Origin: Umezawaea tangerina
GTDB taxonomy: Bacteria > Actinomycetota > Actinomycetes > Mycobacteriales > Pseudonocardiaceae
Reading direction: 5' to 3'
NCBI RefSeq assembly: GCF_003002815.1
Contig: NZ_PVTF01000001.1
Coordinates: 124,001-188,000 of the forward strand
Length of the DNA stretch: 64,000 bases
Positions 12,060 through 15,521 of the stretch are shown one piece after another. Position numbers and translations under genes: made by a program. Every line of letters begins with the position of its first letter. Position 1 is the first letter of the stretch. Below the pieces are notes generated by a model that was not told the DNA's origin, ran no database searches, and was given only the letters and a program-made list of their open reading frames with translations.

Positions 12060-14849
12060 CTACAGCACGATGTTCACCAGTCGGCCGGGCACGACGATCA
12101 CCTTGCGCGGGGTGCCGCCCGCGACCAGCTCGGCGATCTTCTCCTCGGCCAGCGCCGCGGCCTTGACCTCGTCCTGACCGGCCGCGGCGGGCACCGTGAT
12201 CCGGGCCCTGACCTTGCCGTTGACCTGGATCGGGTACTCGACCGAGTCCTCGACCAGGTACTTCTCGTCGGCCTTGGGGAACGGCCCGTGCGCCAGCGAC
12301 CGGTCGTGGCCCAGCTTGGCCCACAGCTCCTCGGCGACGTGCGGGCCCAGCGGTGCCAGCATCAGCACCATGGCCTCGGCCAGCACCCTCGGCGTGCCGG
12401 TCGCGCTGTAGGCCTTGGTGACGTGGTTGTTCAGCTCGATCAGCTTCGCGCCCGCCGTGTTGTAGCGCAGGTTCACGAAGTCGTCGTGCACGCCCGCGAT
12501 CGTCTTGTGCAGCAGCCGCAGCGACTCCTCGGGCGCGGCGTCCTCGACGACCCTCAGCTCACCGGTGTTCTCGTCGACCAGGTTGCGCCACAGCCGCTGC
12601 AGGAACCGCTGCGCGCCGACGACGTCCTTGGTCGCCCACGGACGGGACACGTCCATCGGGCCCATCGACATCTCGTACATCCGGAACGTGTCCGCGCCGT
12701 AGTTCTCGCACATCTCGTCCGGCGTGACGACGTTCTTCAGGCTCTTGCCCATCTTGCCGTACTCGCGCTTGACCTCCTCGCCGTTGAAGAAGAACTTCCC
12801 GTTCTCCTCCACGACCTCGTCGGCGGGCACGTACGTCTCGCGGGCGTCCTGGAACGCGTAGGCCTGGATGTAGCCCTGGTTGAACAGCTTGCGGTACGGC
12901 TCGTCGCCGGACACCTGGCCCAGGTCGAACAGCACCTTCTGCCAGAAGCGGGAGTACAGCAGGTGCAGCACCGCGTGCTCGACGCCGCCGATGTACAGGT
13001 CGACGCCACCGGGGTCGCCCGCGCCGTGCTCCGCGGTGCGCGGGCCCAGCCAGTACTGCTCGTTCTCGGCGTTGACGAACCGGTCGGACTCGGTCGGGTC
13101 GACGTAGCGCAGCTGGTACCAGCACGACCCGGCCCAGTTGGGCATGGTGTTGAAGTCGCGGCGGTACTTCTTCCTGCCCTCGCCCAGGTCCAGCTCGACC
13201 TCGGTCCAGTCGGTAGCGCGGGACAGCGGCGGCGACGGCTCGCTGTTCGCGTCCTCCGGCTCGAAGGTGCGCGGCGAGTAGTCGTCGACCTCGGGCAGCT
13301 CGACCGGCAGCATCTCCTCCGGCAGCGGGATCGGCGTGCCGTCCTCGTCGTAGACGATGGGGAACGGCTCGCCCCAGTACCGCTGGCGGGAGAACAGCCA
13401 GTCGCGCAGCTTGTACTGCACGGTGCCCTGGCCGAAGCCCTTCTCCTCCAGCCACGCGATCATCGTGGACTTGGCCTCGGTGACGCCCATGCCGTCCAGG
13501 AATCCCGAGTTGATCGCCGGACCGTCGCCGGTGAACGCCTCGCCGTCGAAGCCCTCGGACGGCTGCACGGTGCGGATGACCGGCAGGTCGTACGCGGTCG
13601 CGAAGTCCCAGTCGCGCTGGTCCTGGCCGGGGACGGCCATGATCGCGCCGGTGCCGTAGCCCATCAGCACGTAGTCGGCGATGTAGACCGGGATCCGCTC
13701 GCCGGTGGCCGGGTTCGTCGCGTGCGCGCCGGTGAAGACGCCGGTCTTCTCCTTGTTCTCCTGGCGGTCCAGTTCGGACTTCAGGGACGCGGCACGGCGG
13801 TACGCGGCGATGTCGGCGGCCTGCTCGGCGGTCGCGATCACGTCCACCAGCGCGTGCTCCGGCGCCAGCACCACGTAGGTCGCGCCGAACAGCGTGTCGG
13901 GGCGGGTCGTGAAGACCTCGATCTCCTGGTCGCCGACCGGGAAGCGCACGCGGGCGCCGTTGCTGCGCCCGATCCAGTTGCGCTGCATGGCCTTGACCTT
14001 CTCCGGCCAGTCCAGCCGGTCCAGGTCGTCGATCAGCCGGTCGGAGTACGCGGTGATCCGCATCATCCACTGGCGCAGGTTCCGCCGGAACACGGGGAAG
14101 TTGCCGCGCTCGCTGCGGCCGTCGGCGGTGACCTCCTCGTTGGCCAGCACCGTGCCCAGGCCGGGGCACCAGTTCACCGGCGCCTCGGACAGGTAGGCCA
14201 GGCGGTACTCGTTCAGCACCTTGCGCTGCTCGGCGCTGGTCAGCCCGGCCCACGGGCGGCCGTCCGGCGTCGGCCGGGAGCCGTCGGCGAACTGCGCCTC
14301 CAGCTCGGCGATCGGCCGCGCCTTGCCCGCGTCGGCGTCGTACCAGGAGTTGAAGATCTGCAGGAAGATCCACTGCGTCCACTTGTAGTACTCGACGTCG
14401 ATCGTGGAGATCCGGCGGCGCTCGTCGTGGCCCAGCCCCAGCCTGCGGATCTGCCGCAGGTAGGTGGCCATGTTGTCCTCGGTGGTCTTGCGCGGGTGCT
14501 GGCCGGTCTGCACCGCGTACTGCTCCGCGGGCAGGCCGAACGCGTCGAAGCCCATGGTGTGCAGCACGTTCCGGCCGTTCATCCGGTGGTACCGGGCGAA
14601 CACGTCGGTGCCGATGAAGCCCAGCGGGTGGCCGACGTGCAGCCCCGCGCCCGACGGGTACGGGAACATGTCCTGCACGAACAGCTTGTCCGCGGGCACC
14701 GGCTCACCGGTGGACAGCGGGCCGACCGGGTTCGGCGCGTGGAACGTGCCGTTGTCCTCCCAGTACTGCTGCCAGCGCTTCTCGATCCGACCTGCCAGCT
14801 CCGCCGTGTAGCGGAAGGCCGGGGTCTCCGCGGCCGCCTCCGTGCTCAT
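12060..14849 (-). CDS. leuS: leucyl-tRNA synthetase
   Basis: Cytosolic class I aminoacyl-tRNA synthetase of 929 residues that charges tRNA-Leu. The HIGH-type motif is HVGHP (about residues 71-75). A large CP1 editing insertion with [11 protein letters not shown] follows, and the KMSKS loop is present as KMGKSLKN (about 700). An anticodon-binding domain and a C-terminal domain ([14 protein letters not shown]) complete the normal length. The ATG at 14849 is preceded by GAGAGGGA. An upstream leader peptide with three consecutive Leu codons and a downstream terminator-like hairpin point to leucine-responsive attenuation. Confidence 0.97.
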
Positions 14850-14888
14850 CGAACGTCCCTCTCCATCGATTTCCTGCCCCTGACACGA

Positions 14889-14953
14889 CGAAACCCCCCA
14901 GCCCATCAGGGCGTGAGGGGTGGCCGCGCCGACCAGCTTGTCGGTCAGCGCGG
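14889..14953 (-). promoter_or_regulatory. leuS leader: pause hairpin and terminator-like hairpin
   Basis: Reading leftward, an 11-bp stem (14943-14953 with 14924-14934, one G-U pair) overlaps the leader-peptide stop codon. A second GC-rich stem-loop (14921-14889) ends in GGGGGTTT. This order (leader ORF, pause stem, terminator) is that of ribosome-mediated attenuators. I could not work out an unambiguous antiterminator pairing by eye. Confidence 0.6.
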
Positions 14954-14983
14954 CTGGATAAGGAGCAGGCAGGCCTTGCTCAT
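14945..14983 (-). CDS. leucine-rich leader peptide of leuS
   Basis: Short ORF encoding [12 protein letters not shown] (12 residues) with CTG-CTC-CTT, three successive Leu codons. The ATG lies 6 nt after a TACCGT -10-like hexamer and has no properly spaced Shine-Dalgarno, so the transcript may be leaderless and begin at the ATG. The stop codon lies in the 5' arm of the following hairpin. Its likely role is to sense charged tRNA-Leu by ribosome stalling, controlling read-through into leuS. This is inference from sequence layout. Confidence 0.6.
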
Positions 14984-14989
14984 GCTCCT

Positions 14990-15018
14990 ACGGTACCCGG
15001 TTGACCACGCTGGGCGAA
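14990..15018 (-). promoter_or_regulatory. leuS promoter
   Basis: A -10-like TACCGT (14995-14990) has a weak -35 candidate TTCGCC 17 bp upstream. The same TACCGT -10 is used by the rpmH promoter in this window. Transcription would start at or next to the leader-peptide ATG. Confidence 0.45.
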
Positions 15019-15116: not shown

Positions 15117-15521
15117 GTGAACATCGTGCTGCCTGTGGTGCTCGGCTTGGTCGGCGTCTTCCTCGGGCTGATCGGCTACCTCGGGTTGAGCGGGAAGCTG
15201 CCGCGCAACCGCTACGTCGGCGTCCGCACCGCTCCGGCGATGCGCGACGACGAGGCGTTCCTGCTCGCCAACCGGGTCGCGGGCCTGCCGAACGTCGTCG
15301 CCGCGGTCGTCGCGGTCGGCGCGGGCACGGCCGCCGTCGTCAACCCGGACGCCGCGCTGACCGTCGGCGTCGTCGGTGTCGTCGGCGCGGTCGCGATCAC
15401 CATCGCGGGCACGGCCGTCGGCCACCGCGCCGCCGAGGCCATGCCCGAGCCGGAGGCCCCCAAGGGCTGCGGTGGCTGCGCGTGCGCCGGTGGCGGGTGC
15501 AGCACGTTCTCGCGGGCCTGA
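15117..15521 (+). CDS. SdpI-like small membrane protein
   Basis: Protein of 134 residues from a GTG start with three hydrophobic helices (about 2-22, 55-75, 80-100). It contains the SdpI-family signature LPRNRYVGVRTAPAMRDDEAFLLANRVAG between the first two helices. The C-terminus is a Cys/Gly-rich tail with five cysteines (GCGGCACAGGGC), unusual for SdpI and possibly metal-binding. In Bacillus SdpI gives immunity to a killing factor; here no toxin gene is adjacent, so the role is unknown. Confidence 0.75.
   Translation: MNIVLPVVLGLVGVFLGLIGYLGLSGKLPRNRYVGVRTAPAMRDDEAFLLANRVAGLPNVVAAVVAVGAGTAAVVNPDAALTVGVVGVVGAVAITIAGTAVGHRAAEAMPEPEAPKGCGGCACAGGGCSTFSRA

Follow-up and report, generated by a model that had tools for sequence, protein, structure and literature searches.

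The leuS leader locus

The window, a 64,000-nucleotide stretch of actinobacterial DNA, carries on its minus strand the gene for leucine--tRNA ligase, leuS (12060–14849, ATG at 14849), identified by its match to NCBIfam TIGR00396. A Shine-Dalgarno-like GGAGAGGG (14857–14864, minus strand), read by eye, precedes the leuS start codon. Direct reading of the sequence places a short leader on the minus strand, between leuS and a divergent ORF. The leader ORF (14983–14945, minus strand) consists of 12 codons and a TGA at 14947–14945 (ATG AGC AAG GCC TGC CTG CTC CTT ATC CAG CCG CGC TGA), with a start that is predicted from promoter spacing. Its putative regulatory Leu codons, CTG CTC CTT (14968–14960, minus strand), end on the rare codon CTT. 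A -10 box, TACCGT (14995–14990, minus strand), recognized both by reading the sequence and by pattern search, lies 6 nt ahead of the ATG at 14983, which we predict to be the transcription start as well. The composite pattern TANNNT-N6-RTG-N12-CTNCTNCTT has a single match in the 64 kb and none in 100 shuffles. A generic promoter scan found no sigma-70-type promoter at the leader.

An AGGAG ends just 1 nt 5' of the leader ATG in the window. Because two relatives from the same genus carry AAGGCC and AAGAGC at the same spot, this AGGAG is neither a usable nor a conserved Shine-Dalgarno sequence. The initial annotation of this DNA had described a 12-codon ORF with three Leu codons, 6 nt past TACCGT and lacking a usable Shine-Dalgarno; direct reading of the locus bears out the first part of this description, and the position of AGGAG and its absence from the two relatives bear out the second.

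The divergent ORF (15117–15521, plus strand) has 134 codons, adjoins the leuS promoter and looks membrane-protein-like by eye.

Conservation of the leader among relatives

In the GTDB family to which the window belongs, leuS was found in 144 of the 150 genomes sampled. These were scanned for a short ORF, 6–29 codons long up to the stop, that contains two or more Leu codons and has a TANNNT 6–8 nt before the start; the criteria were fixed after the first leaders had been seen, and scans of the reverse strand and of shuffled sequence served as the control. A leaderless Leu ORF was present in 124/144 leuS-bearing genomes, covering 42 of 45 genera, against 0/144 on the reverse strand and a mean of 0.8/144 over ten rounds of dinucleotide shuffling, none of which gave more than 2. 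When an LL run was added to the criteria, the count was 123/144, against 0 for both the reverse strand and the shuffles. The 124 leaders start with ATG (81) or GTG (43), and in 123 of them two or more Leu codons stand in a row. Between -10 box and start codon lie 6 nt in 59 leaders, 7 nt in 60 and 8 nt in 5, these being the only spacings that the scan admitted. The initial annotation had named beforehand, as an outcome that would refute it, homologous leaders that lack the Leu codons or stems, and the homologues do keep both the Leu codons and the stems, save in lineages without a detectable leader.

The family scan found no leader in 20/144 genomes. Three genera (g26, g42 and g46) are wholly negative, at 0/6, 0/5 and 0/5, and g5 is positive in 2/6. 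By eye, leuS itself appears to be leaderless in g26, with a TACCAT shortly 5' of its GTG, and some g5 genomes without a leader apparently retain remnants of the stems.

A second sample comprised 80 named leuS loci. A first scan of these for LLL-containing short ORFs yielded 31 credible leaders, in 23/23 Streptomycetaceae and 8/13 Pseudonocardiales; a 37-aa ORF with LLL at one further locus (L029) is not leader-like and was left uncounted, and that locus has no leader with the -10 spacing. The remaining five Pseudonocardiales (Kibdelosporangium, Saccharomonospora and Actinopolyspora) contain the module with two adjacent Leu codons. Requiring an LL run and a TANNNT 6–8 nt before the start, we recovered 13/13 Pseudonocardiales, 23/23 Streptomycetaceae and 0/44 of the other named loci (Nocardia, Rhodococcus, Gordonia, Mycobacterium and others). 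It follows from the 20/144 family genomes and the 44/44 other named loci in which none was found that leuS can do without such a leader.

One genome (G358) has two leuS-like genes of different type (L263 and L264), which are 72% and 41% identical to that of the window over the matched part, and each is preceded by a leaderless Leu leader of its own.

The putative sensor codon and its distance from the stem

CTT closes the Leu run in 120 of 123 leaders, one of the 124 having no LL run. Among the 2404 Leu codons in leuS parts from 43 loci, CTT occurs 9 times, and the leuS gene of the window uses CTG for 71/71 leucines. CTT and CTC are presumably read by one tRNA with a GAG anticodon. The position of the run is also nearly fixed: among the 120 of 124 leaders in which all anchors were located, which are those used for the spacing, pairing and ribosome-mask analyses, in 116/120 genomes the stem (CCGC) starts 6 nt past the end of the Leu run, and the CCCC of the terminator follows 2–3 nt past the stem, again in 116/120, with a highly variable loop in between.

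For E. coli attenuators, Elf and Ehrenberg explain codon choice by selective charging of isoacceptors and not by rarity alone (PMC1183508). The CTT rule fits this idea, which is not to say that it proves selective charging, and the preference for CTT may instead have an RNA-level cause. With its near-invariant rare codon set at a constant distance from a stem, the leader offers a clean way of testing, in bacteria other than E. coli, whether attenuators rely on the isoacceptor whose charging is most sensitive.

Two abutting hairpins and their covariation

The RNA from 14983 to 14869 has a predicted folding energy of -64.6 kcal/mol, compared with -47.9 +/- 3.9 for shuffles (z -4.3; 0/200 as good). 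Two minus-strand hairpins are indicated by the fold and by covariation: a 13-bp stop-codon stem (14923–14954; arms 14954–14942 and 14935–14923) and a 12-bp terminator-like hairpin (14893–14921; 5' arm 14921–14909, 3' arm 14904–14893). In the predicted fold the two are 1 nt apart and have no bases in common. The tail of the terminator-like hairpin is a U-tract (14892–14881) that is weak, with only UUUCGUCGUGUC, and a generic terminator scan found no terminator at the leader that satisfies its T-run rule.

Covariation was assessed in an alignment of 42 rows, made up of 40 genus representatives out of 42, two being omitted for their long loops, and two Streptomyces sequences, whose terminator ends are misaligned. 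Both-sided changes affect 10 of the 24 pairs in this alignment and include compensatory changes in both hairpins. Cells with a both-sided change number 27, compared with 5.9 in shuffles and 5–12 when the partners are slid, and 92.5% of cells pair, compared with 38–47% for slid partners. A region-pair test over 36 pairs detected strong covariation in the stop-codon stem only (z 6.6). Pairing of the terminator exceeds shuffles in 41/42 genera with a permutation z of 0.7, the hairpin being too conserved to covary; the pair formed by the 5' arm and the U-tract reached z 2.1, yet does not rise above shuffles. The terminator anchor is missing in 2/124 leaders, and among the other 122 a single one (G072) failed, by eye, to fold as a terminator.

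In 21 genomes from 8 genera, the stop codon is a TAG one codon past the Leu run, and the downstream strand of the stem persists untranslated; one of these genomes (G060) belongs to the window's own genus. Because the stop moves and the stem strand remains, it is the RNA pairing, and not the C-terminus of the peptide, that is maintained. A peptide-level role for the C-terminal PR was considered and is ruled out, as the stop precedes PR in 8 genera in which the stem strand persists.

The initial annotation had posited a pause-type stem at the stop codon and, before leuS, a terminator-like stem. Fold and covariation uphold both stems. As to role, the stop-codon stem is a candidate antiterminator or pause hairpin, and it may be the former rather than the latter.

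A proposed mechanism for leuS attenuation

We propose, with good though not full confidence, that the leader is a ribosome-mediated transcription attenuator through which leucyl-tRNA charging sets the expression of leuS. That a leaderless Leu leader peptide attenuates leuS is supported at the level of sequence, and ribosome-mediated attenuation from a leaderless mRNA, as the initial annotation had suggested, is favored by the -10 box in 124/144 genomes, the Leu run in 123/124 leaders and the covariation of the stems. The related leaders with Ile or Val/Leu codons before cimA and ilvB, and the leaderless transcription reported for the S. lividans homologue (PMC8079986), also speak for it.

Judging from the promoter spacing, transcription would start at or next to the ATG, and the first ribosome would initiate on a leaderless mRNA that has no Shine-Dalgarno. 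This ribosome would then decode CTG-CTC-CTT, of which CTT lies 6 nt ahead of the GC-rich stem that takes in the last ORF codons and the stop. When Leu-tRNA is ample, the ribosome should reach the stop codon and cover the 5' arm of the stem, and the abutting terminator should end transcription before leuS. When Leu-tRNA is scarce, the ribosome would stall on the Leu codons, the stop-codon stem would form or partly persist, and RNA polymerase would read through into leuS. This stall and read-through logic is modelled on published actinobacterial ilvB attenuators and is extended here by analogy.

In this scheme the stop-codon stem would have to counteract a terminator with which it has no bases in common. 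Among the leaders with all anchors (120/124), we found no conserved pairing that could serve as an antiterminator by competing for bases of the terminator. The classical antiterminator, in which the 3' arm of the stop-codon stem and the loop pair with the 5' arm of the terminator, scored below shuffles (3.98 vs 4.32) and also not above partners from other genera. Pairing of the stop-stem loop with the 3' arm of the terminator, as in the Corynebacterium ilvB-II type, did not exceed shuffles (9.58 vs 9.69). The complementarity of the Leu run to the 3' arm of the terminator is above shuffles in 30/42 genera but shows no covariation, and for this reason, and because its logic would be reversed, we have not adopted this pairing. 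For the ORF segment ahead of the Leu run, pairing with the 5' arm of the terminator averages 0.19 and exceeds 0.5 in 7% of the 120 leaders.

Following practice for M. tuberculosis ilvB1 (PMC13236596), we modelled the ribosome as a mask of 26 nt centred on a codon and folded the remainder at equilibrium. With the mask on the third-from-last, second-from-last or last codon of the run, 11.1, 8.1 and 3.9 of the 12 stop-stem pairs are left on average, respectively, and with the mask at the stop codon none is left; the terminator retains ~11 pairs in every modelled ribosome state. Because a mask on the last Leu codon removes most of the stop-codon stem, the published actinobacterial logic best suits a ribosome that stalls near the beginning of the run, and this does not square easily with CTT as the most conserved codon. 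Because the terminator is intact in all of the modelled states, its exclusion would need kinetic or steric means. Abutting hairpins that do not overlap, with no visible antiterminator, pose a testable question about how attenuators switch.

It is also conceivable, but in our estimation unlikely, that the leader acts on translation. In the full-length mRNA, the Leu run would pair with AGGGGCAGG near the leuS ribosome-binding site and close a three-way junction, and a stalled ribosome would open this pairing, somewhat as in the leuA LEU elements, for which a stem between Leu codons and Shine-Dalgarno has been proposed. The segment in question (14873–14881, minus strand) forms a 9-bp helix with the Leu run in the predicted minimum-energy fold, where it sits upstream of the leuS Shine-Dalgarno, and it belongs to a G-rich motif that many genera keep at a fixed distance past the terminator. 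Complementarity between run and motif exceeds shuffles in 34/42 genera (permutation p 0.02), and the duplex energy exceeds shuffles in 37/42 and partners from other genera in 25/42 (p 0.027). Against this, the permutation p is 0.25 under other window limits, the motif is not the Shine-Dalgarno, a purine-rich stretch readily pairs with CTCCTT in any case, and the terminator is more strongly conserved. Because these tests disagree, we treat the pairing of the Leu run with the G-rich motif as a lead only.

We give still less credence to a scheme in which the stop-codon stem does no more than pause or insulate and the terminator works constitutively, so that promoter strength and partial termination would set leuS expression with no sensing of leucine. 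Such a scheme agrees with the formation of the terminator in all modelled ribosome states and with the negative antiterminator search, but would leave unexplained why the Leu run is conserved, why CTT ends it, why the stem follows at a fixed 6 nt and why codons for the matching amino acids stand ahead of ilvB and cimA. Short ORFs are common in any DNA, but the view that this ORF arose by chance between two divergent genes, and that the terminator serves unrelated transcription, merits practically no belief, as it is refuted by the conservation of the leader across 42 genera with reverse-strand and shuffle controls near zero, by a pattern that is unique in the window (0/100 shuffles) and by the covariation.

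Relation to known attenuators

The attenuator that we favor is of a kind already known from Streptomyces, and it proves here to be widespread and of unusually rigid build. Attenuators of leuS were predicted in 2005 in S. avermitilis and S. coelicolor (PMC1262725), and leuL2-leuS of S. lividans TK24 was reported in 2021 as leaderless, with a hairpin and a U-rich stretch (PMC8079986). As described there, leuL2 (MRAVRLLLSEPR) resembles the leader of the window in being a leaderless 12-residue peptide with LLL upstream of leuS. The window accordingly presents the traits of a Streptomyces leuL2-type leader, namely an LLL ORF of ~12 codons with leaderless -10 spacing, upstream of leuS and followed by a hairpin and a putative terminator. 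The Streptomyces leuS loci that were fetched are likewise similar, with the same -10 spacing, a ...PR-stop over the stem and a terminator 2 nt beyond. The body of the peptide differs, being MSKAC or MSTAR here and MRAVR in the Streptomyces leuS leader, and the terminator here has a longer stem, a one-base bulge and a U-tract that is weaker than the AUUUUU of Streptomyces. A Streptomyces feature is in this way extended to most of the sampled genera of another large actinobacterial family. Searches of an open-access library yielded no report of a leuS leader in Pseudonocardiaceae, nor of an Ile leader before cimA.

T-boxes control synthetase genes through tRNA charging. A T-box match was found neither in the window nor in its genome of origin, and among Rfam families only tRNAs scored over the gathering threshold, with weak, chance-level matches at the leader. 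The initial annotation had set the attenuator apart from the T-box control of Firmicutes; the lack of a T-box match agrees with this, but the contrast is beside the point because the host is an actinobacterium and leuS attenuators had already been predicted in Streptomyces (PMC1262725) and reported as leaderless in S. lividans (PMC8079986).

Published attenuators of actinobacterial ilvB are similar in architecture, with a uORF of branched-chain codons, an overlapping hairpin and a terminator (PMC11857589, PMC13236596, PMC10272879), and they differ from the window leader in the gene and the amino acid concerned. In the description of C. glutamicum ilvBNC, the start codon lies one nucleotide from the 5' end and the antiterminator and terminator hairpins, which are adjacent, share a GCC trinucleotide (PMC11857589), whereas the helices of the leuS leader are 1 nt apart with no common bases. 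Nor is the loop/terminator pairing described for Corynebacterium ilvB-II (PMC10272879) supported in the leuS leader. The leuA LEU element, as presented in PMC1262725, is comparable in its Leu-codon uORF and in that its Leu run may pair with a G-rich segment further downstream; the leuS leader is unlike it in having a terminator and in that its pairing partner is not a Shine-Dalgarno. Mycobacterial leaderless polycysteine uORFs, which are described as acting by translation attenuation (Canestrari 2020, as cited in PMC13236596), are leaderless amino-acid gauges like the leuS leader, but for cysteine.

Similar leaders upstream of ilvB, cimA and leuA

A covariance model, R1, was built on the leuS leader. 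At E <= 0.001, R1 has matches in 139/246 genomes of the class and in 68/104 genera, and not all of them are at leuS; its matches in Streptomyces are not independent because the model contains two Streptomyces rows. In the window's own genome R1 recovers the leuS leader only, two other matches (E 1.8 and 6.6) being noise. Among the best 30 matches, leuS lies within the fetched stretch of ~3.1 kb in 29, and one is unassigned. Forty of the matches listed were fetched, chosen non-randomly for double-match genomes and for many families, and these precede leuS (21), ilvB (10), cimA (6) and leuA (2), with one unassigned. Gene identities come from tblastn, together with NCBIfam best matches for 8/18 of the assigned non-leuS cases; the five cimA fragments tested have NCBIfam scores under the curated cut-off.

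The window's own genome also contains leaders before ilvB (MQRTLVLVLPRRVDA) and cimA (VASNTVIIIDERAG), which were missed by R1 and found by direct inspection. The ilvB leader (L303), ~261 nt ahead of the gene match, has GTA CTT immediately before the stop-codon stem and a terminator with a long T-run. The gene matched as cimA, citramalate synthase-like at 65% to the query, has its leader (L305) ~161 nt upstream; this leader has the Ile codons ATC ATT ATT, a stop stem and an abutting terminator. Its -10-like hexamer is CACGAT, not TANNNT. Because several ilvB, cimA and leuA leaders elsewhere are also without a TANNNT at the tested spacing, a leaderless start is less certain for these leaders. 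Six more cimA-type leaders occur in other members of the class. The leuS leader is in this way linked, within a single genome, to ilvB and cimA, which are branched-chain genes.

The sensor codons of these leaders are rare as well. GTA is present in 11/11 ilvB leaders and ATT in 7/7 cimA leaders, own genome included; in the coding parts, GTA accounts for 6/272 Val codons of ilvB and ATT for 0/40 Ile codons of cimA.

We tentatively suggest that the leaders of leuS, ilvB, cimA and leuA in Actinomycetes could represent one exchangeable attenuator that switches without base-pair competition, for example through contacts that the helices make at the junction with each other or with RNA polymerase, though we would not yet bet on it. 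The shared design, offered with the same reserve, might comprise a leaderless ORF in which a rare codon acting as sensor (CTT, GTA or ATT) lies ~5–6 nt before a stop-codon hairpin. That hairpin would abut the terminator, and here too we can speak only of a possible common rule, usually with 0–1 nt between helices that have no bases in common.

The gap between the helices was measured in 39 of the 40 fetched leaders (L302 was omitted) and three own-genome leaders; one of these 42 could not be parsed. Regulatory runs were defined by pattern, and because the pattern took in an adjoining Ile or Val codon in a few rows, the stem distances in those rows are too short. The helices are 0–1 nt apart in 40/41 parsed leaders, the one exception being the window genome's own ilvB leader, with a gap of 6 nt.
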